Assembly: GCF_012910715.1 (NCBI RefSeq)
Contig: NZ_JABBHF010000010.1
Coordinates: 1-64,000 of the forward strand
Direction of reading: 5' to 3'
DNA: 64,000 nt
Origin: Flavivirga algicola
GTDB taxonomy: Bacteria; Bacteroidota; Bacteroidia; Flavobacteriales; Flavobacteriaceae
Shown: piece by piece, positions 22,894 through 63,371 of the stretch
How the letters are laid out: every line of letters begins with the position of its first letter
How positions within the stretch are numbered: position 1 is the stretch's first letter
The notes under the pieces: generated by a model
What the model was told of the DNA's origin: nothing
What the model saw: only the letters and a program-made list of their open reading frames with translations
The model's database searches: none
Program-made: the position numbers and the translations under genes

Positions 22894-23910
22894 ATGAGTA
22901 TTTTATTTGAAAATATAAATAAACAAAAAGAAATTGTAACATTCACTAAGCATGAACAAATAGTTAATGCCATATTAAATGCCATAGAATCTAAAGCGTT
23001 AAAAAGAGGAGATCGTTTACCATCTATTAACAAAATGGTAGCAGAAATTGGTTTTGCACGTAAAACGATAGTTAAGGCTTATGAAGATTTAAAAGGGAGA
23101 GGTATTGTAGAATCTAAAAATTTTAAGGGCTATTACATTGCAGATGTAAATACAAATACAAAATTGCGAGTAGCCCTTTTACTCTTTGCCTTTCATTCAT
23201 TTCAAGAAGACTTCTATAACACTTTTAGAAAGGAATTAGGAAAAAAATATATAATTAATGTTTTTTTTCATCATAACAACATAGATGTTTTTAAGGATAT
23301 CCTAACAAGAATTTCAGGAAGGTATGGCATGTATGTTGTTGCTCCTATTCAAACAAAGGAAGCTGGGCTGTTATTAAAAAATATCCCGAGTGAAAAATTA
23401 TTGGTCATAGATAGGCATATCCCTTTGCCTGGTGACTATTCTTATATCGCTCAAGAATTTGAAGACGCAACTTATAACCAATTAAAAAAACTACTTCCAG
23501 AGATAAAAAAATATAAAAAATTTATCCTATTCTTTAAGGAAGATACAGATAATCCATTGGGTGTTTTTAACGCGTTCAATAAATTTATTCAAGAATTCAA
23601 TATTAAAGCCAAGGTAGAAAGAGAATATAAAAAAGGAAGTGTTGCCAAAAACAATCTATATTTTTTTATCAGTGATAATTATTTATGGGAAATTCTTAGA
23701 GACAGTAAGTTAAAAAACTATATCATTGGAGAAGATATAGGTGTTTTGGCCCATAACGATAATGCCGTTAAAGAAATAATTTTTGGTGGGATCACTACAA
23801 TTTCTACCGATTTTAAAAAAATGGCTTTAGAATCTGCAAATTTTATAAAATTTAGAGAGCCAACTCGTAAAATAATGCCTTCTGAACTCATTCATAGAAA
23901 TTCATTGTAA
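22894..23910 (+). CDS. GntR-family transcriptional regulator with sugar-binding-like C-terminal domain
   Basis: The 338-residue protein has an N-terminal GntR winged helix (about 15-85), with ALKRGDRLPSINKMVAEIGF and ARKTIVKAYEDLKGRGIVES. Residues about 92-335 resemble a LacI/periplasmic-binding-protein domain (LRVALLLFAFHSFQEDF, PLGVFNAF, ITTISTDFKKMA). The effector is therefore probably a small sugar derivative. It lies between the divergent beta-galactosidase gene and susC, the usual place for a local regulator. Candidate operators are the three 17-bp repeats at 24144-24228. Confidence 0.88.
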   Translation: MSILFENINKQKEIVTFTKHEQIVNAILNAIESKALKRGDRLPSINKMVAEIGFARKTIVKAYEDLKGRGIVESKNFKGYYIADVNTNTKLRVALLLFAFHSFQEDFYNTFRKELGKKYIINVFFHHNNIDVFKDILTRISGRYGMYVVAPIQTKEAGLLLKNIPSEKLLVIDRHIPLPGDYSYIAQEFEDATYNQLKKLLPEIKKYKKFILFFKEDTDNPLGVFNAFNKFIQEFNIKAKVEREYKKGSVAKNNLYFFISDNYLWEILRDSKLKNYIIGEDIGVLAHNDNAVKEIIFGGITTISTDFKKMALESANFIKFREPTRKIMPSELIHRNSL

Positions 23911-24254
23911 CACCAATTATTTTTTGTCTAAATATAGAAACTTTTGCAACTTTAAAAAAGTGTTTCAATGTATAAATTATTCATTATTTGAAGCTTTTAC
24001 TTACAAAATAATATTGTTTTAATTTATTCTAAAAAACGCATTATAGCAATAATTTAAAGGATTTCACATATAACTGTCTGTTTTTTAGGTGCTTTTTTTC
24101 GATATTCTTAAAATGTATCAATATTTTTTATATATTTGCAAAGTAGCATACTGTATCATACTTTGTAATTTTTAAAGTAGCATACTATATCATAATATAA
24201 AATAAACAAAGTAGCATACTGTAGCACAAATTAAACTAACTTAAATATTGACTT
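23911..24254 (+). promoter_or_regulatory. susC upstream region with -7 element and three phased repeats
   Basis: This gene-free stretch of about 340 bp contains TATATTTG (24131-24138), an exact TAnnTTTG -7 motif. Directly after it are three copies of a 17-bp sequence at 24144-24160, 24178-24194 and 24212-24228, spaced exactly 34 bp. The rest is AT-rich and shows no other feature. Confidence 0.65.
24144..24228 (+). repeat. Three direct repeats TAGCATACTGTATCATA, 34-bp period; candidate GntR operators
   Basis: Copy 1 is TAGCATACTGTATCATA, copy 2 TAGCATACTATATCATA and copy 3 TAGCATACTGTAGCACA. Each is an imperfect palindrome around a central base with an ATAC-N-GTAT core, the size and symmetry of GntR-family operators. 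Placed at and just after the presumed transcription start, bound protein would block initiation or escape. The regulator is not proven; the adjacent GntR protein is the best candidate. Confidence 0.6.
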
Positions 24255-27200
24255 ATGAAAAAAAATGTACTAAGACAGCTATTTGCCTTAGTCTTTCCCC
24301 TTCTGGGAATTATGGCTAATGCGCAAGTATCAACTGTTTCGGGAACAGTTACAGATGGAGAATTTCCGCTTCCTGGAGTTAACATTGTTGTAAAAAATAC
24401 AACGAATGGAACTTCATCAGATTTCGACGGAAATTTCACCATTAATGATGTGAGTCCTGGAGACATTATTGTTTTTAGCTATGTTGGGTATAAAGCCCAA
24501 GAAGTTACAATTGGAAGTGAAACTACAATTAATGTTATCTTAATTGAAGATACTGCAGCATTAGATGAGGTAGTTATTGTAGGTTATGGAACATCAAACA
24601 AGCGTGAATTAACAGGTTCTGTTGGAACTGTTAAAGGAGGTGATTTAGCAAACACAGTTGCAGGTAATCCAACTGCAGCGCTACAAGGAAAACTTACTGG
24701 AATACAAGTTGAAAACCCAGGAGGGCAACCAGGAGGAACTGGTAACGTATTTATTAGAGGGATCAACTCTTTAAGTAATGCATCACCACTTTATATAGTG
24801 GATGGATTATTTGTAGATAACATGAATTATATTAATCCCTTAGATATCGATAATATTTCTGTTTTAAAAGATGCTGCCGCCGCCGCAATCTATGGTTCCA
24901 GAGCAGCCAATGGTGTCGTTTTAATTAAAACAAAACATGGTAGAAAAAATAAAGGCTTAGAAATTACTTTTAATTCTAGAATTGGTTTCGATACACCAAG
25001 TAAAAAATTAGATTTTATTAATGGTCAGCAATATACCGATTATCTAAATCAGCGATTTGCTAACGATGGTAGTTCTACAACTGTTTCTTTTAACGGTGTG
25101 AATACAGATTGGCAAGAAGAAAATCTTCAGAGCGGACTTATTGAAGATTACGGACTTTCATTATCTGGTGGAGGTGAGAAATCATCTTATTATTCTTCAA
25201 TCAACTATTTTTATCAAGATGGTATCTTAGTAGGTTCTGGTTTTAAAAGATTGAATGCCCGATTTAATAGCAGTCATGAATTCGGAAAATTTAAACTAAC
25301 ACAATCATTAGGTCTTACCGAAGCTAAATTGCAACGAAATAACTGGTATGGGTTTGATGGTACTACAGCACCTACCGTTGCACTAAGAAATGCTAATAAC
25401 GAAGGTGGTTTTGAAGCTCCGTCAACAGATATTCACGGTCCTGGAGGCGTAAATCAATTTGCTTTAGCTTCATTAGAAAACAATTTAGTAACAACACGAA
25501 CTCTATTTGCGAGCTTAAAGCTAGATTATCATATTACAGAAGATTTAACGGCTGGAGTTAATTTAGGTATTGATTATACCAATCAGAAACAGTTCCAATT
25601 TACACCAACTTATTTTATGAGTCTTGTGGATCCAGTAAGAAACGTAAATGATCTAAACGATCTTACAGATGCAAGAATTGATGCTATTAATTTATTATTT
25701 GAGCCAACAATATCTTATAAAAAAACATTTAATGATGTCCATAAAGTATCGGCCGTATTAGGTTATACACGTTTTATTGAAACCGAAGACGCCAGTGGTA
25801 TATATGGACAAGGCACACCCGCAAATAGCATACAAGTCGTTTCTGCTTTGCCTTCAAGTGATCAAAATATATTATTAGGTCAAAACAATAAGGCTGGTTT
25901 AGTTTCTTATTTTGGAAGGTTGAATTACAACTACGATGACAAATATATTTTCTCTGGGACCTTGAGAAGAGATGCTTCGTCTAGATTCGCCAAAGAAAAT
26001 CAAGAAGGGTACTTCCCCTCAGTTTCTGCTGCATGGAATATTAGTAATGAAGCGTTTTGGAAATCTGAAACCATTAATTTTTTCAAGCTAAGAATGTCTT
26101 ATGGAGAGTTAGGATCTTATCCAGATGTATTTTACCCTACTCAAGCCGTTTTTCTGGCTAATCAATCCAATACCAGTTTTGGAGGAGGCGTAGCTAATGG
26201 ATTAGCTCAAACAACATTAGCAGACCAAAATTTAGTATGGGAAACAACCAAAACCTTCGATATAGGTGTGGATATGTCATTCTTAAACAGTGCTATTACA
26301 TTTTCTGCCGATTATTATTCTAAAGATGTTGAAGATGCATTGGTGCCTATTAGCGTTCCTTCAACAGCTGGTGTTAGTTTACCAGTGGTTAGAAATGCAG
26401 GAACTCTTATTAATAATGGTTTCGAATTTGATCTTACTTATAAAAAATCTGAAGGAGATTTTACCTATAGTGTAGGTACAAATTTCTCTTTTAACCTTAA
26501 AAACGAAGCTAAAGATATTCCAGCTACTATTTTAGGACCAGGAATAGATGAAGATTTACGTGTTGTAAATAGAACTGAGGCTAACGGGCCAGTTGGTGCA
26601 TTTTATGGTTGGGTAGTAGAAGATAAAGTAGACCCTGCTACCGGTGATTTTATTAGAGTGGATACTGATGGTGTTCCTGGAATTACTTCAGACGATCAAA
26701 CCATTATTGGAGATCCAACGCCTGATTTTACTTATGGTTTAAATTTTTCGGGTGAATACAAAAAATTTGATTTCTCACTGAATTTTAATGGCGTATCTGG
26801 TAACGAAATATATAACCTAAGTAGATATTACAATATCTTATGGCAAGATGGCGGTAAGTTAACCGATGTACTTAACTCATGGACGCCTTCAAATACCGAT
26901 ACCAATATTCCAAGAGCAACAGTAGATGATGAAGCAGGAAATAAAGAACCATCTTCCTTCTTTGTTGAAAATGGATCTTATTTCAGATTAAAAAACTTAG
27001 AAGTTGGTTATAATTTTGGAGAAAACGCATTAGGTGTTGATTGGATTAAAAGTGTGAGGCTGTCTCTCAACATTCAAAACGTTTTTGTAATAACGGATTA
27101 TTCTGGTTATGATCCAGACGTAGCATCAACAAATAGTGGTAGAGCAAATATTAACTCTGGAGTACCAGGTGTAAGAACAGACGTTAATCCTTTATTAGGT

Positions 27201-27269
27201 AGAGGCCTAGACCAAAGAGCATATCCTAATGCAAGAACATTCATGTTAGGCTTACAGGCTAAGTTTTAA
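24255..27269 (+). CDS. SusC/RagA-family TonB-linked outer-membrane transporter
   Basis: The 1004-residue protein begins with a signal peptide (ends MANAQ) and a carboxypeptidase-like regulatory domain (VSGTVTDGEFPLPGVNIVVK, about 27-100). A TonB box-like EVVIVGYGT follows, then the plug domain (ALQGKLTGIQV, GNVFIRGINSLSNASPLYIVDG) and a long beta barrel ending in F (GLQAKF). It imports an oligosaccharide or glycoside across the outer membrane with its SusD partner, whose gene starts 17 bp later. There is no STN domain, so it is not expected to signal to a FecR protein. This agrees with control by the local GntR regulator. Confidence 0.95.
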   Translation: MKKNVLRQLFALVFPLLGIMANAQVSTVSGTVTDGEFPLPGVNIVVKNTTNGTSSDFDGNFTINDVSPGDIIVFSYVGYKAQEVTIGSETTINVILIEDTAALDEVVIVGYGTSNKRELTGSVGTVKGGDLANTVAGNPTAALQGKLTGIQVENPGGQPGGTGNVFIRGINSLSNASPLYIVDGLFVDNMNYINPLDIDNISVLKDAAAAAIYGSRAANGVVLIKTKHGRKNKGLEITFNSRIGFDTPSKKLDFINGQQYTDYLNQRFANDGSSTTVSFNGVNTDWQEENLQSGLIEDYGLSLSGGGEKSSYYSSINYFYQDGILVGSGFKRLNARFNSSHEFGKFKLTQSLGLTEAKLQRNNWYGFDGTTAPTVALRNANNEGGFEAPSTDIHGPGGVNQFALASLENNLVTTRTLFASLKLDYHITEDLTAGVNLGIDYTNQKQFQFTPTYFMSLVDPVRNVNDLNDLTDARIDAINLLFEPTISYKKTFNDVHKVSAVLGYTRFIETEDASGIYGQGTPANSIQVVSALPSSDQNILLGQNNKAGLVSYFGRLNYNYDDKYIFSGTLRRDASSRFAKENQEGYFPSVSAAWNISNEAFWKSETINFFKLRMSYGELGSYPDVFYPTQAVFLANQSNTSFGGGVANGLAQTTLADQNLVWETTKTFDIGVDMSFLNSAITFSADYYSKDVEDALVPISVPSTAGVSLPVVRNAGTLINNGFEFDLTYKKSEGDFTYSVGTNFSFNLKNEAKDIPATILGPGIDEDLRVVNRTEANGPVGAFYGWVVEDKVDPATGDFIRVDTDGVPGITSDDQTIIGDPTPDFTYGLNFSGEYKKFDFSLNFNGVSGNEIYNLSRYYNILWQDGGKLTDVLNSWTPSNTDTNIPRATVDDEAGNKEPSSFFVENGSYFRLKNLEVGYNFGENALGVDWIKSVRLSLNIQNVFVITDYSGYDPDVASTNSGRANINSGVPGVRTDVNPLLGRGLDQRAYPNARTFMLGLQAKF

Positions 27270-27286
27270 TCAATAAAAAATACATT

Positions 27287-28855
27287 ATGAAAAAAATAAT
27301 AAAAATAAAGTCCTTATTAGGCATAATAACATGTTCGTTATTAGTATTGTTTGCTTGTTCTGATGATATCTTGGATCAACAAAATAACAATGCAACATCT
27401 ACAGCAAACTTTGGTACTTCTGTAGATCAGGTGAAGTCTGCCATCAATGGTGCCTTCCACCCAATTACAGGAACCTTTTTCTGGGGCAGAATTATACACA
27501 CAGGAGCGATGCTGCGTTCAGATGAATTCAATGTGTTTCCGTTTGGGTCAAACACAGCCATGTCAACATTTTTAGGAAACCCAGGGGACCGTTGGGCTAC
27601 CGAGCCATGGCAGGAACTTTATAAATCTATAGCCAGATGTAATAACATTATTATTAATACAACTGAAGCAGGTATTCAAGACCAAACAACTAGAGAAAAT
27701 CTAGTTGGACAAGCTTATTTCTTGCGTGCTTTCGATTATTGGCATTTAGTAAACCTTTATGGTAGTGTTCCTTTAATTACAGATTTACCAGATTTAGACA
27801 ATCTTTTAGTTAATAAAGCGCCAACAGCAGATATTTGGGCACAAATAATTTCGGATTTAGAAATGGCAGAAAATATGCTCCCAGATAGTTGGACAGGTGA
27901 AGATTTAGGAAGAGCAACATCTGGTGCCGCAACAGCTTTAAAAGGAAAAAGCTATTTGTACATGAAACAATACGGTGCCGCAACAACAGCTCTTAATAGC
28001 TTAATTGGTAGATACAGTTTATTGCCAGGGGCTCAGTTTGGAGACAATTTCTCAACCACGAATGAAAATAACAGCGAATCTGTATTCGAATTGCAATTTT
28101 TAGGACAAGAGACTTTTGTTTGGGGGTCTGATATCCCAGGAACGGGAAGCATGGGTAATTTTCATATAGATTATGCACCTCCCGCAAAATCACCAGATAG
28201 AAGCCATGTCGTGAACCCTTGGTTAAAAGATTTATATGAAGATCATGGTGATGTTATACGTAGAAATGAAACATTAGCATACGATTACCCAGGAGCAACA
28301 GGTTATGGTGGCGTTGATTTTAATACAGACTTTGTTGACGACATTCCATTTGCCACTGATGCTGGAGTAGAGGCTATTTTTTCTAAAAAATATTCAGGAA
28401 TGGATTTAGGCACAAGAGACCAAGTCGATTTCTTGGGAACAAATGTAGGAAACAATTGGAGAGTCATTCGGTATGCTGATGTCTTATTAATGTTAGCAGA
28501 AGCTTTAAATGAAGATGGTATGACATCTCAAGCCATACCATATGTAGATATGGTTAGAGAGCGTGCAGGATTAACTTTAATAGTAGATACCAACCCAGGC
28601 ATTAATCAAGCTGATATGCGTCAAGCTATTATAGATGAGCGAGCTATGGAATTAGCTGGTGAAGGGCATCGTTTCTTTGACTTGGTAAGATGGGATTTAG
28701 CAGACGATTATCTAGGACCTACATCCCTACATGGAGCACATCCTAAATCTTTAAGTGGTGGTACGTTCCAAACCAATAAACATGAGCTTATATGGATTCC
28801 AAATTCCGAAAGGGATTCTAATCCTAATCTTGGCCAAAACGATGGCTATAATTAA
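27287..28855 (+). CDS. SusD/RagB-family surface lipoprotein
   Basis: The 522-residue lipoprotein has the lipobox LLVLFAC (Cys near residue 24). The SusD-family TPR scaffold and C-terminal landmarks are present: GQAYFLRAFDYWHLVNLYG, RYADVLLMLAEALNE, INQADMRQAIIDERAMELAGEGHRFFDLVRW (landmark only, about 440-470) and a HELIWIPNSE ending. It is the substrate-capturing lid of the SusC transporter encoded just upstream. A hairpin terminator follows, which may lower expression of the downstream enzymes relative to susCD. Confidence 0.94.
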   Translation: MKKIIKIKSLLGIITCSLLVLFACSDDILDQQNNNATSTANFGTSVDQVKSAINGAFHPITGTFFWGRIIHTGAMLRSDEFNVFPFGSNTAMSTFLGNPGDRWATEPWQELYKSIARCNNIIINTTEAGIQDQTTRENLVGQAYFLRAFDYWHLVNLYGSVPLITDLPDLDNLLVNKAPTADIWAQIISDLEMAENMLPDSWTGEDLGRATSGAATALKGKSYLYMKQYGAATTALNSLIGRYSLLPGAQFGDNFSTTNENNSESVFELQFLGQETFVWGSDIPGTGSMGNFHIDYAPPAKSPDRSHVVNPWLKDLYEDHGDVIRRNETLAYDYPGATGYGGVDFNTDFVDDIPFATDAGVEAIFSKKYSGMDLGTRDQVDFLGTNVGNNWRVIRYADVLLMLAEALNEDGMTSQAIPYVDMVRERAGLTLIVDTNPGINQADMRQAIIDERAMELAGEGHRFFDLVRWDLADDYLGPTSLHGAHPKSLSGGTFQTNKHELIWIPNSERDSNPNLGQNDGYN

Positions 28856-28900
28856 TAGTAAAAGATATTTGATTTTTAGTTTGGTTTTTGAGTGAATAAG

Positions 28901-28930
28901 AGTCGAGTCCCTATAAAAATATACTCGACT
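28901..28930 (+). terminator. Hairpin between susD and the alpha-galactosidase gene
   Basis: AGTCGAGT (28901-28908) pairs with ACTCGACT (28923-28930) and is followed by TTTTAA. Flanking TTTGGTT and AACCAAA segments can lengthen the stem. It lies in the 167-bp gap and would act as a full or partial terminator. Confidence 0.6.
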
Positions 28931-29022
28931 TTTAACCAAACCAATTGAAAACATGTTCAAAATTTAGAAAAAGCTAAAGAAAAAAGTCAGATTAATAGTT
29001 CTCCCAATAGATAAAAAGTAGC

Positions 29023-30795
29023 ATGACGAAAAAAAATTACATAATTTCTGAAAAGGATATCCAAATTGAAGGAGACTTAAATAATTTCAAAACAGAATTA
29101 TCGGTCCTTTCTAAATATTCAAATATATCTGTATTTGGATTTAAAATGATGGCGATATCATCTCCAGAGATTCCAAAACCAATAACATTAAAATGGAAAA
29201 TTTCTGCTCATAATGTTAAAGGTGTTTGGAAACCAACCACAGATTTCTCGAAAAGAATTCAAGCAGATTGGGAAAAGGATCATATGGAATCTAGAATTTC
29301 TATTGATGCGCCAGTTATTAGTTTGTTTGGCCATGACGATAACAATCGGCTTACTTTTGCTTGTTCCAATGCTATAAACAAGTTAGAACTTAATGCCGAG
29401 ATAAGAGAAGAAGACGATTGTTTCTATTGCCACATAACACTATTTTTAGAGCAGCAGTCCAAGCTTAAAGATTATCATGTTGAGATAAGGATTGATCAGG
29501 ACGAAAAACATTTTTCCGAAGCTTTAAAAGGAGTGTCTAAATGGTGGGAAGGTTTTGATAACTTAAAACCAACACCTGTTCCGGATATTGCATGGACACC
29601 ACTCTATTCAACTTGGTATCAATTTCATCAAAATTTAGAAGAGACCGTTTTAATTGAAGAATGTAAACAAGCACATAACTTAGGTTATGAGACTGTTATA
29701 GTTGATGATGGATGGCAGACTAACGATGGCAATAGAGGGTACGATTTTACAGGAGACTGGAAACCTGAGCGTCTTTCAAAAACCAAAGAATTTGTAGCAA
29801 ATATTCATGCTACAGGCATGAAAATAGGGTTTTGGTATTCGGTGCCTTTTTGTGGAAAAAAATCAGAAGCATATAAACGTTTTAAGGGTAAGTTTCTAAC
29901 AGAGAATCACCGCTGGGCACCTGTTTTCGATCCGCGGTATCCTGAAGTTCGTGAGTACTTAGTAAGTATCTATAAAAATGCCATATTAGATTGGAATTTA
30001 GACGGGTTTAAGCTCGATTTTATTGATGATTTCAGATTGTATGTCGACACACCAAAAGTTAATCCTAATATGGATTTCATTTCTATCAACGCAGCAGTAG
30101 ATAGATTATTAACTGATGTTATCTCAACACTTAAAAATATAAACCCTGATGTTTTTATAGAATTCAGGCAAAAATATACAGGTCCAGCCATGCGCAAATA
30201 TGGTAATATGTTCCGTGCATTCGATTGCCCTGGCGACGCTACTATGAATCGTATTAGAATTGCAGATATTAGGATGTTGGCAGGGAATACAGCAGTACAT
30301 TCCGATATGATTACATGGCATCATGATGAAGACCTGGAAGTAGCAGCTTTACAAATGGTCAATACCTTATTTGGGGTGCCGCAAATTTCAGTAGTTCTTA
30401 AAGATATTCCTAAAGACCATTTAGAAATGATAAAGTTCTATACCAACTACTGGAACATCAACAAAGAAATTATTACAACGGGTTTTTTTACACCTTATAA
30501 GCCGCTTGCTAATTATCCCATTCAAACAGTCATTAAGAATAATAAGATCATTATTGGCTTACATGACGACCATATAGTTCAGGTTGATGACATTTTTGAA
30601 AACGTAGATATTTTAAATGCAAAATTATCAACAAGTATTATTATTAAAACAAGTAAAGATTTAGGTAACTATAATTGCCGTATCTTTAATTGCAAAGGAA
30701 ATCTTCTTAATGAAGAAGAATTAGCCTTCAAAAAGGGATTATCTGAATTAAATATTCCAGCCTGTGGCCTAATTCAATTAACATTAAACAAGTAG
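29023..30795 (+). CDS. GH36-type alpha-galactosidase, cytoplasmic
   Basis: The 590-residue protein has no signal peptide. An N-terminal beta domain (1-190) is followed by a TIM barrel with the clan GH-D signatures: WTPLYSTWYQFHQN, TVIVDDGWQTNDG (about 227-240), GFWYSVPF and DGFKLDFIDDF with the probable nucleophile Asp near 332. The FRAFDCPGDATMNRIRIADIR segment has the likely acid/base Asp near 400-405. It would cleave a terminal alpha-galactoside after uptake. The symporter gene follows 7 bp downstream and glycerol genes follow that, pointing to an alpha-galactosyl-glycerol as substrate. Raffinose-synthase-like or other alpha-glycosidase activity is possible. Confidence 0.85.
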   Translation: MTKKNYIISEKDIQIEGDLNNFKTELSVLSKYSNISVFGFKMMAISSPEIPKPITLKWKISAHNVKGVWKPTTDFSKRIQADWEKDHMESRISIDAPVISLFGHDDNNRLTFACSNAINKLELNAEIREEDDCFYCHITLFLEQQSKLKDYHVEIRIDQDEKHFSEALKGVSKWWEGFDNLKPTPVPDIAWTPLYSTWYQFHQNLEETVLIEECKQAHNLGYETVIVDDGWQTNDGNRGYDFTGDWKPERLSKTKEFVANIHATGMKIGFWYSVPFCGKKSEAYKRFKGKFLTENHRWAPVFDPRYPEVREYLVSIYKNAILDWNLDGFKLDFIDDFRLYVDTPKVNPNMDFISINAAVDRLLTDVISTLKNINPDVFIEFRQKYTGPAMRKYGNMFRAFDCPGDATMNRIRIADIRMLAGNTAVHSDMITWHHDEDLEVAALQMVNTLFGVPQISVVLKDIPKDHLEMIKFYTNYWNINKEIITTGFFTPYKPLANYPIQTVIKNNKIIIGLHDDHIVQVDDIFENVDILNAKLSTSIIIKTSKDLGNYNCRIFNCKGNLLNEEELAFKKGLSELNIPACGLIQLTLNK

Positions 30796-30802
30796 TAAGA
30801 CT

Positions 30803-32458
30803 ATGGATACGTTGTCGATCATTTCTTTTATTGGCTTTACATTATTGGTTGCTTTCATAGCTTGGTACGCCACTCGTAAAACAGATGAAAAATCTGCCGA
30901 TGGTTATTATCTTGGAGGTAGAAGTTTAGGGTATATAACCATAGCAGGCTCCTTGTTGTTAACAAACCTTTCAGCAGAACAAATAGTAGGTCTTAACGGT
31001 CAGTCTTTTGCACAAGGCGTATTAGTTATGGCATGGGAAACCTTGGCAGCTATTTCAATGATAGTAACGGCCATTTATTTATTGCCTAAATACATGCGAT
31101 CTGGTATAACGACCATTCCGGAGTTTATCCAAGAACGGTTCGATGCCCAAACAAAATCCATATTGTCGCTATTGTTTTTAGTAGCCTTTGGTATTGTGTT
31201 GCTGCCAACTATTTTATATTCAGGCTCTCTGGCGTTTAGTACGATGTTTAATTTACCAGAAGTCTTAGGTGTATCGCAATCTACAGTTATATGGATCTGT
31301 GTTTGGTCCATAGGTATTATTGGTTCCATTTACGCTATTTTCGGAGGTTTAAAAGCTGTGGCGGTTTCCGATTTGGTAAATGCTATTGGTTTATTAATTG
31401 GTGGTCTGTTAATTCCTGTTTTTGGCTTAATGCTAATAGGCGATGGTAGTGTATCTAACGGATTAAGTACGTTGTGGGAAGCTAATCCAGAAAAGTTTAA
31501 TGCCAAAGGTGAGATAGATTCTTTTATTCCATTCGGTACCATTTTTACAGGAATGATGATAGCACAAATGTACTATTGGGGTACCAATCAATCTATTTTA
31601 CAACGCGTTTTTGGAGCTAAAAGTTTAAAAGAAGGTCAAAAAGGTATGATATTGGCAGGTTTTGTCAAGTTCCTCATTCCTGTGATTGTAGTCTTGCCAG
31701 GTGTTATTGCATGGCATGTATTCGGAAATGATTTAGGAAATGCAGATCAAGCATATCCTGCTTTGGTTCGTAAAGTCTTGCCAGGGGCTTTTTTAGGATT
31801 CTTTGCAGCGGTTCTTTTTGGTGCTGTTTTGAGTTCATTTAATAGTTTATTAAATAGTAGCTCTACGCTATTTGGGGTTGACCTATACCGTCAATATTTC
31901 GATAAAAATGCTTCCGAGCTTAAAATGGTAAAAGCGGGGAAGGTATTTGGGTTACTTCTAGCCATTGTATCGATGACTATTTCGCCATTTATTGCCAATG
32001 CACCCGATGGCTTGTTTTCATATATCCAAGAATCACTAGGGAGTTTAAGCGTGCCTATTCTAGCCGTAGTAACTGTTGGAATCATTACCAAAAACGTACC
32101 AGCCATTGGCGCTAAAATAGTGTTGACTGTTGGTGTACTTATGTATTTGATTAGTCAATTTGTATTGAGTCCACATTTTGTTGATGCCGCACTGGCTGAG
32201 GCAACTGCCAATGGGATAACAGATGCTAAAGAGTTGGGTATTATAAAAGCAAAAGCGTACCCCCATTTTTTACATATTATGGGTATTTTATTTGTAATCA
32301 ATGTCGGATTTATGTTGCTAATGGGTAAACTATACCCAAATAAAAAGGTTTACACACCAAAAATTACTGAGCAAATAGATATAACACCTTGGAAATATGC
32401 TAAGGTAGTAGGCATTGTTATTACCATATTGGTTTTAAGTACCTATCTTATTTTTTAA
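30803..32458 (+). CDS. Sodium/solute symporter (SSS family), probably for the locus sugar
   Basis: The 551-residue polytopic protein has about 13-14 membrane segments. It shows SSS-family landmarks: YYLGGRSLGYITIAGSLLLTNLSAEQ near the N-terminus (landmark, about 35-60), GLNGQSFAQG, IFGGLKAVAVSDLVN and YYWGTNQSILQRVFGAKS. Its relatives include SGLT-type sugar transporters. Lying between the cytoplasmic alpha-galactosidase and glycerol kinase, it would carry the intact galactoside across the inner membrane. Spacing is 7 bp to the gene before and 17 bp to the one after. Confidence 0.88.
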   Translation: MDTLSIISFIGFTLLVAFIAWYATRKTDEKSADGYYLGGRSLGYITIAGSLLLTNLSAEQIVGLNGQSFAQGVLVMAWETLAAISMIVTAIYLLPKYMRSGITTIPEFIQERFDAQTKSILSLLFLVAFGIVLLPTILYSGSLAFSTMFNLPEVLGVSQSTVIWICVWSIGIIGSIYAIFGGLKAVAVSDLVNAIGLLIGGLLIPVFGLMLIGDGSVSNGLSTLWEANPEKFNAKGEIDSFIPFGTIFTGMMIAQMYYWGTNQSILQRVFGAKSLKEGQKGMILAGFVKFLIPVIVVLPGVIAWHVFGNDLGNADQAYPALVRKVLPGAFLGFFAAVLFGAVLSSFNSLLNSSSTLFGVDLYRQYFDKNASELKMVKAGKVFGLLLAIVSMTISPFIANAPDGLFSYIQESLGSLSVPILAVVTVGIITKNVPAIGAKIVLTVGVLMYLISQFVLSPHFVDAALAEATANGITDAKELGIIKAKAYPHFLHIMGILFVINVGFMLLMGKLYPNKKVYTPKITEQIDITPWKYAKVVGIVITILVLSTYLIF

Positions 32459-32475
32459 ATTGAATAGTACAAAAC

Positions 32476-33957
32476 ATGAGCAAAAAATATGTCATAGCAT
32501 TCGATCAGGGAACTACAAGTACACGAACCATTGTTTTTGACGAAAAAGGGACTATTGTTTCAATTTCTCAAAAGGAATTAAAACAATACTATCCACAATC
32601 TGGTTGGGTAGAACACGATGCTTTAGAAATATATAATGACCAATTAGAAACATTCAATAAAGCAGTTTCAGATTCTGGAATCAACCCAGAAGATATTGCA
32701 GCCGTAGGGATTACCAACCAAAGAGAAACAACCGTTGTTTGGGATAAAAAAACAGGAAACCCCATTCATAAAGCCATCGTTTGGTTAGACAAAAGAACGA
32801 CTCATATTTGTAAAGACATAGAAGAAAAAGGACTTTCGAGTTATATTAAAAAGAACACAGGTTTGGTTATCGACTCTTATTTCTCGGGAACCAAATTGAA
32901 ATGGATTTTAAATCATGTCGAGGGTGCGCAGGAAAAGGCTGAAGCAGGAGAACTTATGTTCGGCACTATTGATAGTTGGTTGATTTATAAGTTTACCAAT
33001 GGCAAAAAACATGTAACAGACCATACCAATGCATCCCGTACCATGATTTACAACATTAAAAAATTGGAGTGGGATAAAAAACTACTAGAAGCATTAAACA
33101 TCCCGTTGTCTGTATTGCCTGAGGTTCAAACATCATCTTCAGATTTTGGTTTTATAAATTACGAGGGTGTGGCAATACCAATTTACGGTGTTGCTGGCGA
33201 TCAACAAGCATCTTTATTTGGACAAGGAGGATTTGAAGCTGGCATTGCAAAAAGTACCTATGGTACAGGATGTTTTATTCTATTAAACACTGGTAAAAAA
33301 CAAGTAAGATCAAAAAAAGGTTTATTGACTACTCTAACATGTAGTTTGGACTCCGAACCAGTAAATTATGCTTTAGAAGGAAGCATTTTTGCTGGCGGAG
33401 CATCCATTCAATGGCTTAGGGACCGTATGCAGGTTATCGAAAAAGCAAGTGATACCGAAGCGATTTGCAACAACCTTCCGCCACTTAAAAACGTATATGT
33501 AGTACCTGCCTTTGCTGGCTTGGGGGCGCCACATTGGGATAGTAAAGCAAAGGGAAGTGTGTACGGGATGACTTTAGATACAGGAAGAGAAGAACTTATT
33601 AAAGCAACTGTTAACGCCTTGGCCTATCAAACTAAAGACGTTATTGGTGCTATGGAAAAAGATAGCAATAATAAAATTGTCACATTAAAAGTAGATGGAG
33701 GTGCCAGTGCCAATAATTATTTAATGCAGTTTCAATCAGACCTTTTGAATGTTGAGGTAGATCGACCAAAAATGATTGAAGTTACGGCTTTTGGAGCCGC
33801 ATTATTGGCAGGTATAAAAGCAGGTGTTTGGACGAAAAATAATATCACCGAAATAAGAGAAGTTGATAAGGTGTTCGATCCGAAAATGGATGAAAAAACA
33901 CGGAAAAAGAACTATAAAGGCTGGAAAAAAGCAATAAAGCGAACAAAAAGAAAGTAA
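32476..33957 (+). CDS. glpK: Glycerol kinase
   Basis: The 493-residue protein is full length for the family and phosphorylates glycerol to sn-glycerol-3-phosphate. Signatures include AFDQGTTSTRTIVFD (phosphate 1 region), GITNQRETTVVWDK, FSGTKLKWIL, GTIDSWLIYKFT and the second FGGY signature around GGASANNYLMQFQSDLL (about 411-427). The stop is one base from the glpD start. There is no glpF facilitator nearby, which fits glycerol arising inside the cell. Confidence 0.96.
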   Translation: MSKKYVIAFDQGTTSTRTIVFDEKGTIVSISQKELKQYYPQSGWVEHDALEIYNDQLETFNKAVSDSGINPEDIAAVGITNQRETTVVWDKKTGNPIHKAIVWLDKRTTHICKDIEEKGLSSYIKKNTGLVIDSYFSGTKLKWILNHVEGAQEKAEAGELMFGTIDSWLIYKFTNGKKHVTDHTNASRTMIYNIKKLEWDKKLLEALNIPLSVLPEVQTSSSDFGFINYEGVAIPIYGVAGDQQASLFGQGGFEAGIAKSTYGTGCFILLNTGKKQVRSKKGLLTTLTCSLDSEPVNYALEGSIFAGGASIQWLRDRMQVIEKASDTEAICNNLPPLKNVYVVPAFAGLGAPHWDSKAKGSVYGMTLDTGREELIKATVNALAYQTKDVIGAMEKDSNNKIVTLKVDGGASANNYLMQFQSDLLNVEVDRPKMIEVTAFGAALLAGIKAGVWTKNNITEIREVDKVFDPKMDEKTRKKNYKGWKKAIKRTKRK

Positions 33958-33958
33958 G

Positions 33959-35644
33959 ATGTTAGTGATGGAAAAAAATGTAGAATTTTCAGTTTTAAGT
34001 AGAACAGCACAAATCGAAAAATTACAGACTGCAAAATTCGATTTGGCTATAATTGGTGGAGGTGTCACCGGGGCAGGAATCGCTTTAGATGCTGCTTCAC
34101 GGGGTTTAAAGGTATGCCTTGTTGAGAAAAATGATTTTGCATCAGGAACCAGTAATAAATCTACAAAATTAATACATGGCGGTTTGCGTTATCTTAAGCA
34201 ATTTGAAATTGGCTTGGTGAGAGAATCGGGGTCAGAACGCGCCATAGTTCATAAACTTGCACCACATCTGGTGATTCCAGAAAAAATGCTATTGCCTTTA
34301 GTAGAAGGAGGCACCTATGGAAAAATGATGACTTCCATTGGATTAAAAGTTTACGATTTTTTGGCAGATGTTAAGGGTGATGACAGACGTAGGATGTTGG
34401 ATAAAGAAGAGACCTTAGAAAAAGAATCTTTGCTTAATAAAGAGGTGATTTTAGGCAGTGGGCTCTATGCCGAATACAGAACAGACGATGCACGTTTAAC
34501 CATAGAAATATTAAAGAAAGCAGTGTCTTTTGGAGCAACCATCATTAATTATTGTGAAATGGAATCGTTTAATTATAATGACGATTCTAAAATTAAGAGT
34601 CTCAATTGTAAAGACAACAATACAGGAAATACATTCAAAATAAAAGCTCGAAATTATGTTTCGGCTGCAGGTCCTTGGGTAGATACTTTACGTACCAAAG
34701 ACCATTCTATGAATAATAAATATTTACACTTGACCAAAGGTGTCCATATTGTATTTCCTTACGAAAAATTGCCAGTAAAACAGCCACTTTATTTTGATGT
34801 ACCCGATGGCAGAATGATTTTTGCAATTCCCAGAGGTCGCGCCACTTATGTAGGAACGACAGACACCAATTATTCAGGAAATTTAGAGCGGGTTATTGCT
34901 ACCAAGGATGACGCCGAATATCTGTTAAATGCTATCAATAGCACATTTCCAGATGTTAATGTTACCATTGATGACATTGAATCTAACTGGGCGGGTTTAA
35001 GACCTTTAATTCATGAAGAAGATAAAGACCCCTCAGAATTATCTAGAAAAGATGAATTGTTCATTTCAGATAGCGGACTCATTTCCATTGCAGGTGGAAA
35101 ACTAACAGGCTATCGTAAAATGGCACATCGTGTCATTGAAGCAGTTTTAAATACGATGAAGAAGAAGCATAAAGAAAACTTGAAGAAATCTGAAACAGAA
35201 AAGATTCCTTTAGTAAGTCCTGCACTTAAATCGTCTCAAGAAGTCAATCAATATCAATCTGAACTTGAAAAAGAGTTAAATTTATTGGGCATTACAGATA
35301 CTTACCATGCCTGGTATTTATGTACTACCTATGGAAGGCAATCGGAGGTCATTATAGAAAAATCAAAAATATTTGAAAATGAAGATGCCTTAGAACGATT
35401 GATTAGAGCAGAACTGTGGTACTGCATTCATTATGAGATGACCAATAGTTTAACAGATTTCTTTGTACGTCGTACAGGTAGACTCTATTTTAATATTCCT
35501 AGTGTAAGAGCATATATGGAGATTATTTCGAACGATTGCTTAAATTATTTAGGTTGGGATGATAAGCGTATGACCTCAGAAAAAGAAAACTTAAAGTTGC
35601 TTTTACAAGATGCAACAACGTATTACACTGAAGAATTTAAATAA
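33959..35644 (+). CDS. glpD: Glycerol-3-phosphate dehydrogenase (FAD)
   Basis: The 561-residue flavoprotein oxidises glycerol-3-phosphate to dihydroxyacetone phosphate and passes electrons to quinone at the membrane. The FAD-binding motif is DLAIIGGGVTGAGIALDAASRG (about 28-49), followed by SGTSNKSTKLIHGGLRYLKQ, the GlpD active-site signature. A C-terminal domain (about 410-540) has YGRQ and ELWYCIHYEM. An alternative start lies at 33968. One base separates it from glpK, so coupling is likely. Confidence 0.95.
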   Translation: MLVMEKNVEFSVLSRTAQIEKLQTAKFDLAIIGGGVTGAGIALDAASRGLKVCLVEKNDFASGTSNKSTKLIHGGLRYLKQFEIGLVRESGSERAIVHKLAPHLVIPEKMLLPLVEGGTYGKMMTSIGLKVYDFLADVKGDDRRRMLDKEETLEKESLLNKEVILGSGLYAEYRTDDARLTIEILKKAVSFGATIINYCEMESFNYNDDSKIKSLNCKDNNTGNTFKIKARNYVSAAGPWVDTLRTKDHSMNNKYLHLTKGVHIVFPYEKLPVKQPLYFDVPDGRMIFAIPRGRATYVGTTDTNYSGNLERVIATKDDAEYLLNAINSTFPDVNVTIDDIESNWAGLRPLIHEEDKDPSELSRKDELFISDSGLISIAGGKLTGYRKMAHRVIEAVLNTMKKKHKENLKKSETEKIPLVSPALKSSQEVNQYQSELEKELNLLGITDTYHAWYLCTTYGRQSEVIIEKSKIFENEDALERLIRAELWYCIHYEMTNSLTDFFVRRTGRLYFNIPSVRAYMEIISNDCLNYLGWDDKRMTSEKENLKLLLQDATTYYTEEFK

Positions 35645-35660
35645 AATATTGATTAATAGC

Positions 35661-38600
35661 ATGAAAAATAGAGCATTAAAATTAGGAACATATTTGTTTG
35701 TTTTAATGCTCTTTTTCAATTGTAAAAAGGAAGAAAAAATTATTGTATCGAAAAAGATTTTTGAAACGCTTGATGCATCAATTTCTGGAATCAATTTTTC
35801 AAATAATCTTACCGAAAATGACAGCCTAAATTATTTTACTTATTCCTATTTGTACATGGGAGGAGGGGTTGCTGTTGGCGATATTGATAATGATGGTTTA
35901 AAGGACATATTTTTTACAGGCAATCAAGTTTCAAATAAATTATACCTAAATAAAGGGAATCTTCAATTTGAAGATATTGCAAATAAGGCTGGGGTTTCAG
36001 GAGATAAACGGTGGTACACAGGTGTGACCATGGTAGATATAAATGCCGATGGCTATTTGGATATTTATTGTTCTGTAGGGGGTAAATTTCAGCCTAAAGA
36101 AAATCAATTATATATCAATAATCAAGATGGGACCTTTACAGAAAGAGCAAAGGATTATGGTTTGGCTGACGTTGGAAATAGTGTACAAGCTACATTTTTT
36201 GATTATGACAAAGATGGTGATCTTGATGTTTATGTGGCTAACTACCCACCAACAAAATTTAATGCTTCGGTTTATGTCTACGAGCAAAAAATGGCTCGTG
36301 TAAATAGCATTGAAACAGACCATTTGTATAGAAATGATGGTACTGTTTTTACAGATGTAACAAACGAAGCTGGAGTTAAAAGTTTTGGTTTAACATTAAG
36401 TGCTACTGTTGGTGATCTAAATAATGATTCATGGCCAGATTTATATATATCAAATGATTTTGCATCGCCCGATTATTTATATATGAATAACCAGGATGGA
36501 ACATTTAGAGAGGTGGTTAAAGATGTTATGTCACATACGGCTTTCTATGGTATGGGGGTTGATATTTCCGATTTTAATAATGATGGAAATCTGGATATTT
36601 TTCAGGTAGATATGGATGCCAAAACCAATAAACGCAAAAAGGCAAACATGGCAGGAATGAATCCAGATCTGTTTTGGGGCGTGGTAAATGCAGGGTTTCA
36701 TTACCAATACATGCAGAATTGCTTGCAAATGAATACAGGTGTTTTTGAAGATGGAAATCCTTTTTTTTCAAACATTTCTAGATTAACCGGTGTTTCATCG
36801 ACCGATTGGAGCTGGGGACCGCTCTTTGCAGATTTTGATAATGATGGCTTAAAAGATTTGTTTGTTTCTAATGGTACGCGCCGTGAAGTTAATAATAGAG
36901 ACTTTTTCAATCAAATTGATGATGCTTTTTCCATAGATAGTGATAAAACCTTGGAGATGAGTTTAGAAATTCCATCTGAAAAAATTGATAATTTCATTTA
37001 TAAAAATAATGGTGATTTAAATTTTAAACAGGCCAATAAAGATTGGGGAATAGAATTTAAAGGTTTCTCAAATGGTGTGGCTTATGCCGATTTAGATAAT
37101 GACGGTGATTTAGAAATCATTACGAATAACATTGATGATTATGCGTCTGTTTTTGAAAATAAAAGCTCTGAAACGAATAATTATTTAAGTATACAATTTG
37201 AAGGTACAGCAAATAATGGCTTTGGTTTAGGAAACCGCGTTTTTGTGACTTCTAATGGCGAAACACAAATGCAAGAGCTTACGCTAACACGTGGGTTTCA
37301 ATCTTCGGTAGCTCCAGAAATACATTTCGGCTTGTCTAAATCTGAAATTATTAACGAAATAAAGGTTGTTTGGACAGATGGAAAAGTTCAAAAATTAAAT
37401 AATGTTCCTAGTAATCAAACCATTGTTTTAAAATATTCGGATGCCAAAAACGATTCAGAACCTACTTTAACCGATACAAAAACATTGTTTTCTCCTGTAA
37501 AGGGTGCTTTTCCAGAACATAAACATGATGAAAATAATTTTGACGATTTTAAATATCAAGTGCTTTTACCTCATAAAATGTCAACATTTGGTCCAGCCCT
37601 TGCTGTTGGTGATTTAAATAGCGATGGCTTAGATGATTACTTTGTTGGAGGAGCATTTAACAGAGCTGGGTGTTTGTTTTTTCAAAATGATAACGGATTT
37701 GAACTTCAAACCCCAGAGATATTTCAATATGATAAACTGAGTGAAGATGTAGGTGCTTTAATTTTTGATGCGGATAATGATGGAGATAACGATTTATATG
37801 TAGTGAGTGGCGGCTATGAATTTTCGCCAAAATCTAAAATGCTCCAGGATCGATTGTATATAAATGATGGAAGTGGAAAATTCACAAAAAGTATTTTGCC
37901 AGAAATGATAGTGAGTGGATCTAAAGTCTATAATCTTGATTTTAATAAGGATGGGAAACAGGATCTATTGGTTTTAGGAAGACAAATTCCTGGTCATTAC
38001 CCTACTCCAGCGCATAGCTTTTTATTAGAAAACAAAACAGAAAATAGTCTTGTGGCATTTGAAGACGTTACCAAAAGTTTAGTCGGCCCATTTGAAAATC
38101 TGGGGATGGCAACAAGTGCTTTGATTACCGATTTTAATAATGATGGGTGGCAAGATATTATAATAGTTGGCGAATGGATGTCTATTCGGGTATTTCAAAA
38201 TACGAAGCATGGTTTTAAAGAAGTATCGGAAGCTGTTGGCCTTACAAAGGATACGACGGGTTGGTGGTGGAGCATCAATGAGGGCGATTTTGATGGTGAT
38301 GGTGATATGGATTATATGGTTGGTAACAATGGGCTTAACTATAAATACAAAGCGACCGAAGATGAAACCTTTGATATTTATGTGAACGACTTTGATAATG
38401 ATAATAAAGAAGATATCGTGTTGAGTTATTATAACGAGGGCAAGCAATACCCCGTGAGAGGGCGCGAATGTTCATCGCAGCAAATTCCACAGATTAAAGA
38501 AAAGTTTAAGAACTATGAAAGCTTTTCAGAGGCTACTTTGGTTGATGTATACGAAGAAAAGTCTTTGGAAGCTGCCTTGCATTATCAGGTAAAATCTTTT

Positions 38601-38966
38601 GCTAGTATCTATCTGGAAAACAAAGAAGGAAAATTTATAATACATGAATTACCTGTTGAAGCTCAAATGTCCAGTATCAATAAAATTTTAGTTGATGACT
38701 ACGACCAGGATGGGGCTCTCGATGCTTTAATAGCTGGAAACTTATTTTCTTCGGAAGTTGAAACCCCAAGGAATGATGGTGGTTACGGCCTCTTTTTAAA
38801 AGGTAACAAAAATGGGACTTTTAAAGCGATTGCATCATCTAAAAGTGGTTTCTTTACACAGGGTGATGTTAAAGATATGAAACATATTAAGACTAAAAAC
38901 GGCCAGTTTATTATAGTGGCAAAGAATGATGATTTTCTACAATTTGTAAATATTGGGAAAAATTAA
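35661..38966 (+). CDS. FG-GAP/VCBS and ASPIC/UnbV repeat lipoprotein
   Basis: The start at 35661 is chosen because MKNRALKLGTYLFVLMLFFN followed by CKK is a lipoprotein signal; a longer frame from 35610 overlaps glpD without adding anything. The 1101-residue protein consists of beta-propeller repeats with calcium-binding loops such as DIDNDGLKDIFF, DINADGYLDIY, DYDKDGDLDVY and DLNNDSWPDLY. A UnbV/ASPIC domain lies in the middle (WTDGKVQKLNNVPSNQTIVL, about 570-590) and a second propeller follows. Such lipoproteins are common at the end of Bacteroidota polysaccharide loci, where they are thought to bind glycans or act at the surface. It lies 16 bp after glpD. Confidence 0.87.
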   Translation: MKNRALKLGTYLFVLMLFFNCKKEEKIIVSKKIFETLDASISGINFSNNLTENDSLNYFTYSYLYMGGGVAVGDIDNDGLKDIFFTGNQVSNKLYLNKGNLQFEDIANKAGVSGDKRWYTGVTMVDINADGYLDIYCSVGGKFQPKENQLYINNQDGTFTERAKDYGLADVGNSVQATFFDYDKDGDLDVYVANYPPTKFNASVYVYEQKMARVNSIETDHLYRNDGTVFTDVTNEAGVKSFGLTLSATVGDLNNDSWPDLYISNDFASPDYLYMNNQDGTFREVVKDVMSHTAFYGMGVDISDFNNDGNLDIFQVDMDAKTNKRKKANMAGMNPDLFWGVVNAGFHYQYMQNCLQMNTGVFEDGNPFFSNISRLTGVSSTDWSWGPLFADFDNDGLKDLFVSNGTRREVNNRDFFNQIDDAFSIDSDKTLEMSLEIPSEKIDNFIYKNNGDLNFKQANKDWGIEFKGFSNGVAYADLDNDGDLEIITNNIDDYASVFENKSSETNNYLSIQFEGTANNGFGLGNRVFVTSNGETQMQELTLTRGFQSSVAPEIHFGLSKSEIINEIKVVWTDGKVQKLNNVPSNQTIVLKYSDAKNDSEPTLTDTKTLFSPVKGAFPEHKHDENNFDDFKYQVLLPHKMSTFGPALAVGDLNSDGLDDYFVGGAFNRAGCLFFQNDNGFELQTPEIFQYDKLSEDVGALIFDADNDGDNDLYVVSGGYEFSPKSKMLQDRLYINDGSGKFTKSILPEMIVSGSKVYNLDFNKDGKQDLLVLGRQIPGHYPTPAHSFLLENKTENSLVAFEDVTKSLVGPFENLGMATSALITDFNNDGWQDIIIVGEWMSIRVFQNTKHGFKEVSEAVGLTKDTTGWWWSINEGDFDGDGDMDYMVGNNGLNYKYKATEDETFDIYVNDFDNDNKEDIVLSYYNEGKQYPVRGRECSSQQIPQIKEKFKNYESFSEATLVDVYEEKSLEAALHYQVKSFASIYLENKEGKFIIHELPVEAQMSSINKILVDDYDQDGALDALIAGNLFSSEVETPRNDGGYGLFLKGNKNGTFKAIASSKSGFFTQGDVKDMKHIKTKNGQFIIVAKNDDFLQFVNIGKN

Positions 38967-52048: not shown

Positions 52049-52081
52049 AATCTTTATATTTTCAAATTAATTTTAACTTAA

Positions 52082-53821: not shown

Positions 53822-53898
53822 GGTATGTCTTTTTTTGAAATTTCCTATGGTTTCATAGTTTTTACTTTTATTTAACTTTTGCATCATTTGTACGTTCG

Positions 53899-56691: not shown

Positions 56692-56705
56692 GTTTTTAAT
56701 TTTTT

Positions 56706-58559: not shown

Positions 58560-58578
58560 TTATATTTTAGTTATTAAT

Positions 58579-62004: not shown

Positions 62005-62050
62005 TACTTTTATAGTTCTTTACGTTGGTTATTAATTTAATCACGCTTTA

Positions 62051-62081
62051 AACCGGTAAAATGTTCCAGCATTTTCCGGTT
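62051..62081. terminator. Hairpin between fecR and susC
   Basis: AACCGG-T-AAAATG and CATTTTCCGGTT pair around TTCCAG with one bulged base. The T tract is strong on the plus strand (TTTTTTTT) but weak on the minus strand, where the genes lie. It may attenuate read-through from the sigma/fecR genes into susC, or stop antisense transcription. Confidence 0.45.
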
Positions 62082-62176
62082 TTTTTTATTTACAATTGCA
62101 AACAAAAACGTAATCAAGTAGAATAATAGATGTGTTGTGTACTGAGAGAGGTTCTTATGTCATATTTAGTTTGATT

Positions 62177-63325: not shown

Positions 63326-63371
63326 ATTTAGCTAGCTAACTATATATAGACGATTCAAATCTAAATGATAC

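Follow-up and report, generated by a model that had tools for sequence, protein, structure and literature searches.

A conserved flavobacterial locus pairing a leaderless GH36-type enzyme with glycerol catabolism genes: a probable alpha-galactosyl-glycerol operon in Flavivirga algicola

Results

Layout of the locus

We analysed the first 64,000 nucleotides of contig NZ_JABBHF010000010.1 (assembly GCF_012910715.1) from the 5.02-Mb genome of Flavivirga algicola, a stretch here called the window. An original prediction, made from the sequence without database searches, had placed a candidate locus for galactosyl-glycerol use at 24255–38966. The + strand there and just upstream carries genes for a GntR-family regulator, SusC, SusD, a leaderless GH36-type enzyme, a sodium symporter, GlpK, GlpD, and an FG-GAP/ASPIC lipoprotein, along with the following features:

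22894..23910, + strand: GntR-family regulator with a LacI-type sugar-sensing domain, predicted operon repressor (PF00392 over cut-off)
24131..24138, + strand: Bacteroidota-type -7 box TATATTTG (TAnnTTTG), 12 bp ahead of the first operator
24143..24160, + strand: operator copy 1, GTAGCATACTGTATCATA, conserved in relatives
24177..24194, + strand: operator copy 2, a repeat of the operator
24211..24228, + strand: operator copy 3, a repeat of the operator
24255..27269, + strand: SusC-type TonB-dependent outer-membrane transporter (TIGR04056, 785 bits, cut-off 368)
27287..28855, + strand: SusD-type surface lipoprotein (PF07980, PF14322)
28897..28934, + strand: 12-bp hairpin between susD and the GH36 gene
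29023..30795, + strand: predicted cytoplasmic GH36-type alpha-galactosidase (PF02065; fold model; conserved motifs)
30803..32458, + strand: vSGLT/YidK-type sodium:solute symporter, predicted inner-membrane galactoside importer (NF007790, 725.8 bits, cut-off 401)
32476..33957, + strand: GlpK, glycerol kinase (TIGR01311, 692.8 bits, above the equivalog cut-off of 590.35)
33959..35644, + strand: GlpD, glycerol-3-phosphate dehydrogenase (PF01266, PF16901)
35661..38966, + strand: FG-GAP/ASPIC-UnbV (VCBS-type) lipoprotein, predicted SusCD surface binding partner (PF13517, PF07593; lipobox FFNC by eye)

As had been proposed, the genes from susC to glpD are co-directional within 24255–38966, and the gaps from the alpha-galactosidase gene onward, put at 1–17 bp, measure 7, 17, and 1 bp. 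The last open reading frame (ORF) overlaps glpD by 35 bp when read from its first ATG. Started at the in-frame ATG at 35661, with its lipobox, it leaves a gap of 16 bp, and this gap is 15–17 bp in most close relatives. The lipoprotein gene, the gntR gene, the three operators (24143–24228), and the hairpin were absent from the original prediction. Its statement that there is no glycerol facilitator holds for the locus and fails for the genome, which elsewhere encodes an aquaporin Z and a second MIP channel under the family cut-offs. Neighbouring susC and susD genes with a glycan-active enzyme and a regulator make this a SusCD locus. A family search of the seven operon proteins gave no sulfatase, lyase, lipase, second glycosidase, mannanase, agarase, or sucrose enzyme. 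The genome has one galactokinase gene, which lies outside the locus.

The GH36-type enzyme

At the level of sequence the GH36 assignment is marginal, as PF02065 scores 27.9 bits against a cut-off of 27, and the nearest solved enzyme found by sequence alone has an E value of 4.9e-7. The fold is firmer. An AlphaFold2 model built from 48 aligned sequences has a mean predicted local distance difference test score (pLDDT) of 90.6, and its best folds in the PDB are FpGalNase (9awt), SpAga (6phw), and AgaA (4fnr), with TMq 0.64–0.68 and 12–15% identity. Foldseek ranks 1–22 are all alpha-galactosidases or FpGalNase, and the first GH31 protein appears at rank 23, which places the model with GH36. We take FpGalNase to be a GH36 enzyme; several of the PDB matches are titled GH36, and we presume the same label for the remainder. 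In a profile alignment, D228-D229-G230-W231, K330, and D332 align with solved GH36 enzymes, so that both motifs of the family are present; KxD is presumably the nucleophile motif and DDGW the substrate-binding motif. These residues are invariant in 48/48 aligned homologues, as is D401, a candidate for the acid/base aspartate.

The nearest named relatives of the enzyme come from two uncultured Flavobacteriaceae isolates (92 and 87% identity) and from Flavivirga aquatica (82%). Judged by the hydropathy of the first 45 residues, the enzyme has no hydrophobic N-terminus, which agrees with the original prediction that it is leaderless, and the same is true of all 58 non-redundant relatives at ≥52% identity (hydropathy ≤1.7). 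The 17 relatives at ≤46% identity have a hydrophobic N-terminus (hydropathy ≥2.15) and form an exported sister group. In a quick tree, one branch parts leaderless from exported enzymes (Shimodaira–Hasegawa-like approximate likelihood ratio test 99); L123, L111, and L112 carry a long-branch warning.

Neighbourhoods of related enzymes

We surveyed the genes within ~10 kb of GH36 genes in 36 genome regions and 52 further loci, which gave 75 loci after de-duplication, the window excluded. Genes were labelled by BLAST similarity, with the window proteins and one GalK, one GalT, and one acetyltransferase of the surveyed loci as references, and some of the regions are cut by contig ends. Among the 58 leaderless loci, we found the symporter in 49, SusC in 46, the FG-GAP protein in 43, and GntR in 37. 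GlpK occurs in 20 and GlpD in 20 (fused with GlpK in nine), GalK in 13, GalT in 8, and the acetyltransferase in 20. GlpK and GalK stand together in 3/58 and one or the other in 30/58. This distribution points to a GH36 core decorated with genes for one half of a galactosyl-glycerol, for the other half, or for both. Two Dokdonia loci (L097, L100) hold GalK, GntR, SusCD, the FG-GAP protein, GH36, a fused GlpK~GlpD, the symporter, and a GalE-like ORF (by eye), and L076 carries GalT, GalK, and GlpK~GlpD. The gene set of GH36, symporter, glpK, and glpD, for which the original prediction had proposed a neighbourhood survey, thus recurs in many genomes, and its arrangement is not a matter of chance. 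The leaderless loci span 11 named genera: Flavivirga, Zobellia, Maribacter, Ulvibacterium, Pelagihabitans, Dokdonia, Allomuricauda, Flagellimonas, Croceitalea, Aquimarina, and Tenacibaculum.

None of the 17 exported loci has a symporter, GlpK, GlpD, GalK, GalT, or acetyltransferase gene in the stretch surveyed; SusC is present in seven, GntR in two, and the FG-GAP protein in two. A sulfatase gene follows the GH36 gene in one of them (L061). In Zobellia and others (20/58), a maltose/galactoside-acetyltransferase-type protein is encoded between GH36 and the symporter (L079–L083; L044:10523-11083). Zobellia-type loci also have ORFs of ~440–450 residues upstream of GH36, after the FG-GAP proteins (L212:17893-19215). 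These belong to the PAP2 superfamily, look like lipoproteins by eye, and are possibly haloperoxidase-like.

Regulator, operator, and promoter

An AlphaFold model of the GntR protein (pLDDT 88.5, predicted TM-score 0.77) has mostly LacI-family sensor domains as its top Foldseek matches, and its sequence matches include the DNA-binding domain of an arabinose repressor. The intergenic region between gntR and susC holds three copies of GTAGCATACTRTAKCAYA, spaced 34 bp. At ≤2 mismatches, these three are the only copies in the genome, and a reversed control pattern has none. A near-identical operator, typically GTAGCATAGTRTATCATAG, is found in 46/58 leaderless and 2/17 exported loci; several of the 12 leaderless loci that lack it are cut before susC or have no GntR gene in the stretch. 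The gene start closest to the 65 sites outside the window is that of susC in 47 and of GH36 in 18.

TAnnTTTG is the Bacteroidota -7 promoter box. Of the 68 operator sites, counting the three of the window, 57 have it upstream or at the site, compared with 2.8% of random stretches, and in 53 of the 65 sites outside the window it is 11–14 bp ahead of the operator. The operator therefore begins at about the transcription start, a position that suits a repressor. From the placement of the sites, the GntR protein is predicted to bind them. A scan for sigma-70-type promoters gave no excess over shuffles, the outcome to be expected in this phylum. The GH2 beta-galactosidase gene next to the locus was considered as a further regulon member and rejected, as the whole genome has no operator copy beside it at ≤2 mismatches.

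Operators at remote glp genes

Using the operator consensus at ≤2 mismatches, we scanned 32 genomes and obtained 39 matches, against seven for the reversed control. Nine matches in genomes with a leaderless GH36 enzyme lie away from the GH36 locus and from susC (G388:678948, ~14 kb from the GH36 gene, was counted as a locus site). Five of the nine immediately precede glp genes. In three Zobellia-type genomes (G001 and G388, both matching Zobellia uliginosa, and their congener G236) the site is ahead of glpK-glpD, and in G341 and G211, both of which have galK in cis, it is ahead of glpD. The remaining four are split evenly between G236, with one ahead of a TetR-like ORF (by eye) and another in a different intergenic region, and G215, where one of the two is intragenic. 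A weight matrix adds the glpK promoters of G377 (25.6) and G018 (21.1), against a background of random 165-bp stretches of the fetched loci, true sites included, with a 99th percentile of 8.7 and a maximum of 30.9. A glpD gene away from glpK was covered by the 2-mismatch scan alone.

Altogether, 7 of 15 leaderless-GH36 genomes without glpK in cis have an operator before glpK or glpD. Among control GlpK loci without the leaderless enzyme, the count is 0/19 (28 gene starts in 20 loci, L169 being incomplete). The difference has a Fisher p of 0.0012 with relatedness ignored; by genus, the seven become 5/12. The control set consists partly of other GlpK lineages, and its four loci of the gpsA-linked type give 0/4. 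The TAnnTTTG box is present at five of the seven remote operators. A GH36 homologue at ≥55% identity occurs in 25 of 397 genomes, 10 of which have glpK in cis and seven the operator in trans.

GlpK, GlpD, and their natural fusions

GlpK is the sole copy in the genome, the next FGGY kinase being 25% identical. GlpD is likewise the sole copy; besides it, the search gave just one 50-residue fragment (E 3.4e-4). Its family is clear, and it falls under the cut-offs of two NCBIfam dehydrogenase/oxidase equivalogs (NF008899, 326/360 bits; NF033461, 488/840). In 9/58 leaderless loci the two enzymes are one gene, for example L042:4082-7249 and L057:5812-8997 and those of L097, L100, L105, L109, and L114, with full-length examples of 1,053–1,068 residues. 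The fusion is found in GH36-less loci too. It could offer a one-protein route from glycerol to dihydroxyacetone phosphate.

Our GlpK tree contains 41 sequences, of which 21 belong to GH36 loci and 20 do not. Eight changes of the label "in a GH36 locus" are required on it, and well-supported branches force six of these. GlpK of L047 and L108 is not part of the 35-row clade to which the window's GlpK belongs (branch 100/100); it groups with a type found beside a gpsA-like gene (by eye) in other genomes, although L047 is on a long branch and its exact position is uncertain. The GH36 tree requires five changes of the glp label and seven of the galK label. These counts support more than one arrival, with glp genes of distinct lineages joining the GH36 locus. 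The window's separate GlpK and GlpD nest within a mostly fused clade and may derive from a split fusion.

At L154:6777-11618, a symporter-GlpK-GlpD module 85–88% identical to that of the window has an integrase-like ORF nearby (L154:12391-13308, by eye) and no GH36, and the module may be mobile by itself. In other GH36-less flavobacterial loci (L156, L162, L164, L167, L168), the symporter or a fused GlpK~GlpD is found with an aldose epimerase, a GalE-like epimerase, GalK, or GalT. The coupling of galactose to glycerol thus extends beyond GH36, which suggests other galactosyl-glycerol systems, perhaps for beta-galactosyl-glycerols.

The symporter

The nearest solved relatives of the symporter are vSGLT (the best PDB sequence match, 8.6e-62), SGLT1, and SGLT2. 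vSGLT is a sodium/galactose cotransporter of Vibrio. The symporter keeps vSGLT residues N64, Q69, E88, Y263, K294, F424, and Q428, and changes M73L, Y87W, S91A, and N260Q are present in all 45 GH36-locus symporters compared. Of seven residues that contact galactose in vSGLT, five (N64, Q69, E88, K294, Q428) are kept and two changed (S91 to A, N260 to Q). The contact pattern is identical in 45/45 GH36-locus symporters at ≥55% identity, four more at 31–32% identity being set aside, and in 6/6 from other loci. Such a pocket suits a galactoside other than plain galactose and falls short of proof.

Hairpin and flanking genes

The RNA fold of 28880–28960, around the hairpin between susD and the GH36 gene, has an energy of -20 kcal/mol (z -4.4), and none of 200 shuffles is equally stable. 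The hairpin is a possible attenuator or element of mRNA processing or stability, and it might set the ratio of surface proteins to enzyme. No Rfam family matched in the window at gathering thresholds. Beyond the locus, 39312–63911 on the minus strand encodes a GldB-like/DUF2268 protein, a beta-lactamase-fold protein, and then a second SusC/SusD region (51182–63911) with FecI/FecR-like genes (by eye).

Discussion

A probable operon for alpha-galactosyl-glycerol

The locus is probably an operon dedicated to the catabolism of an alpha-galactosyl-glycerol, for which floridoside (2-O-alpha-D-galactosyl-glycerol) and/or isofloridoside would be the simplest candidates. One operator stands at the alpha-galactosidase and at glpK/glpD, in cis or in trans, and this points to a substrate whose cytoplasmic breakdown gives galactose and glycerol. 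Because the regulon joins an alpha-galactosidase to glycerol catabolism, melibiose or a galactan would not explain it. The idea in the original prediction that the substrate is imported whole and split in the cytoplasm remains the best fit, given the glp and gal genes at GH36 loci of different lineages and the operators at remote glp genes. Floridoside and isofloridoside would fit without extra steps. A study of red algae, in the passages cited here, names floridoside as their main soluble photosynthetic molecule and assigns its breakdown to an alpha-galactosidase (PMC8703398). The cited part of another paper describes a GH36 alpha-galactosidase of a different bacterium that makes isofloridoside from galactose and glycerol (PMC8509150).

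In the working that we propose, SusC/SusD and the FG-GAP lipoprotein would bind the glycoside on the cell surface and move it across the outer membrane, and the vSGLT-like symporter would import it with sodium. The leaderless GH36 enzyme would then cleave it to galactose and glycerol. GlpK and GlpD would convert glycerol to dihydroxyacetone phosphate, and galactose would enter the Leloir pathway through galK, which is elsewhere in this genome and in cis in some relatives. The GntR protein, with its LacI-type sensor, would sit on the operators ~12 bp past the -7 box and be released by the glycoside or by galactose.

Several observations weigh against this proposal. Symporter-GlpK(-GlpD) modules without GH36 exist in L154, L156, L157, L163, and L164, so that the tie to glp genes is shared by loci lacking the glycosidase. 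The genome's own galK has no operator nearby (whole genome, ≤2 mismatches), while an operator precedes susC in two exported-GH36 loci, L061 (L061:265) and L066 (L066:356), that have no glp or gal genes. Two of the remote glp operators (L213 and L232) have no -7 box. Eight of the 25 leaderless-GH36 genomes have neither glpK in cis nor an operator at the glp promoters tested; four of these have galK in cis, and G102, G026, G396, and G050 have no galK there either (in G050 the contig breaks off shortly after the symporter gene). For a solute of about 254 Da one would not expect a SusCD pair, and an alpha/beta-hydrolase gene lies at 18607–19464, past the GH2 gene. The agarase marker PF17992 is in no GH36 genome of the sample; present in just 3/397, it is too rare to test for a red-algal habitat either way.

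Alternative substrates

The headgroup of digalactosyl-diacylglycerol (digalactosyl-glycerol), or a lyso-lipid, would likewise yield galactose and glycerol if the GH36 enzyme took the alpha-galactose and a beta-galactosidase then freed the glycerol. Digalactosyl-diacylglycerol is abundant in algae, the alpha/beta-hydrolase gene is further upstream in the window, and a GH2 beta-galactosidase gene adjoins the locus, divergent from the regulator gene, in the window and in L073, L074, and L039. The GH36-less loci that link fused GlpK~GlpD to galactose genes or to the symporter could also serve beta-galactosyl-glycerols. However, this route requires a cytoplasmic beta-galactosidase, and the doubt already raised in the original prediction gains support: the GH2 enzyme appears exported, with a signal peptide by eye, and its gene is beside the locus in just 3/58 leaderless relatives. 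The genome's sole operator copies are between gntR and susC, and the seven operon proteins include no member of a lipase family. With the operator present at no beta-galactosidase gene, we regard this substrate as unlikely, if the least far-fetched of the alternatives.

A general alpha-galactoside operon, for melibiose, raffinose, or a galactan side-chain, with glpK and glpD as mere passengers, seems to us quite unlikely. GH36 alpha-galactosidases elsewhere, in the cited part of the literature, prefer raffinose-family sugars, and BoGal36A belongs to a mannan locus (PMC5094572); in the window's lineage, moreover, the glp genes are simply the genome's only copies. Yet glp genes of distinct lineages joined the locus, and the remote glpK or glpD of seven genomes carries the locus operator, so that the GlpK tree and the trans operators together make chance placement improbable. 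Mannanase, agarase, sulfatase, and sucrose enzymes, moreover, are all missing from the seven operon proteins. It is very unlikely, in our judgement, that the core is instead a glycerol or galactose uptake module (symporter-GlpK-GlpD) whose symporter carries glycerol or free galactose. Such modules do occur without a nearby GH36 gene in G034, G218, G337, G148, and G206, and the nearest solved relative of the symporter is vSGLT, which transports galactose with sodium. Zobellia, Flagellimonas, and others, on the other hand, pair a symporter with identical pocket residues with GH36 and no glp genes in cis, and a leaderless glycosidase needs the intact glycoside inside the cell.

Wider meaning

Returning to alpha-galactosyl-glycerol as the substrate, we found no bacterial gene set for floridoside use among the literature matches listed, and the main texts of Zobellia transcriptome and carrageenan papers do not contain the term floridoside (PMC5613140, PMC5698469, PMC9296495). 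Genomes of macroalgal epiphytes have been described as well (PMC10233909). On a broader scale, we see an even chance that marine Bacteroidota hold a dedicated alpha-galactosyl-glycerol regulon, an alpha-counterpart of lac in at least 11 flavobacterial genera, into which glycerol catabolism was wired repeatedly and which would be a main bacterial route for the chief soluble photosynthate of red algae. The three wirings would be glpK/glpD moved into the operon, the GlpK~GlpD fusion, and the same operator before remote glp genes. If our reading of the locus is right, it would be a testable marker for floridoside eaters on algal surfaces, and it would bring a predictable regulon whose operator is defined, a clade of GH36 enzymes that are likely specific for small aglycones, and an enzyme in which GlpK and GlpD are naturally fused. 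The trans-wired version is present in Zobellia, a genus of seaweed degraders that is being actively studied, and this opens the prediction to a test in culture.

Comparison with known systems

The enzyme is like GH36 alpha-galactosidases such as AgaA, SpAga, and the Lactobacillus enzymes in its fold and its DDGW and KxD motifs. Unlike the solved enzymes, it is short (590 residues against 654–745), leaderless, and linked to glycerol genes, with just 12–15% identity to the best solved matches. The GH36-locus symporters appear to keep the sugar grip of vSGLT with an altered pocket wall. AraR of Bacillus combines a GntR DNA-binding domain with a LacI-type sensor, and the regulator here has the same architecture by its model; it differs in that its predicted operators start ~12 bp past a Bacteroidota -7 box.

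Like the SusCD-type polysaccharide utilisation loci of Bacteroidota, this locus has SusC, SusD, a glycosidase, and a dedicated regulator in one gene run. It differs in having one intracellular glycosidase and no depolymerase in the operon, which suggests an operon built for a small glycoside, and in a glycerol pathway that either belongs to the operon or is connected with it through the operator. A further parallel is the lac operon of E. coli, for which galactosyl-glycerol was reportedly once proposed as natural inducer and substrate. Both have a cytoplasmic galactosidase, a symporter, and a LacI-type sensing domain, and a maltose/galactoside-acetyltransferase-type protein is encoded in 20 of the 58 related loci. 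In contrast to lac, the galactosidase here is of the alpha type, the symporter uses sodium, the DNA-binding domain is of the GntR family, and SusCD and glycerol catabolism belong to the regulon.

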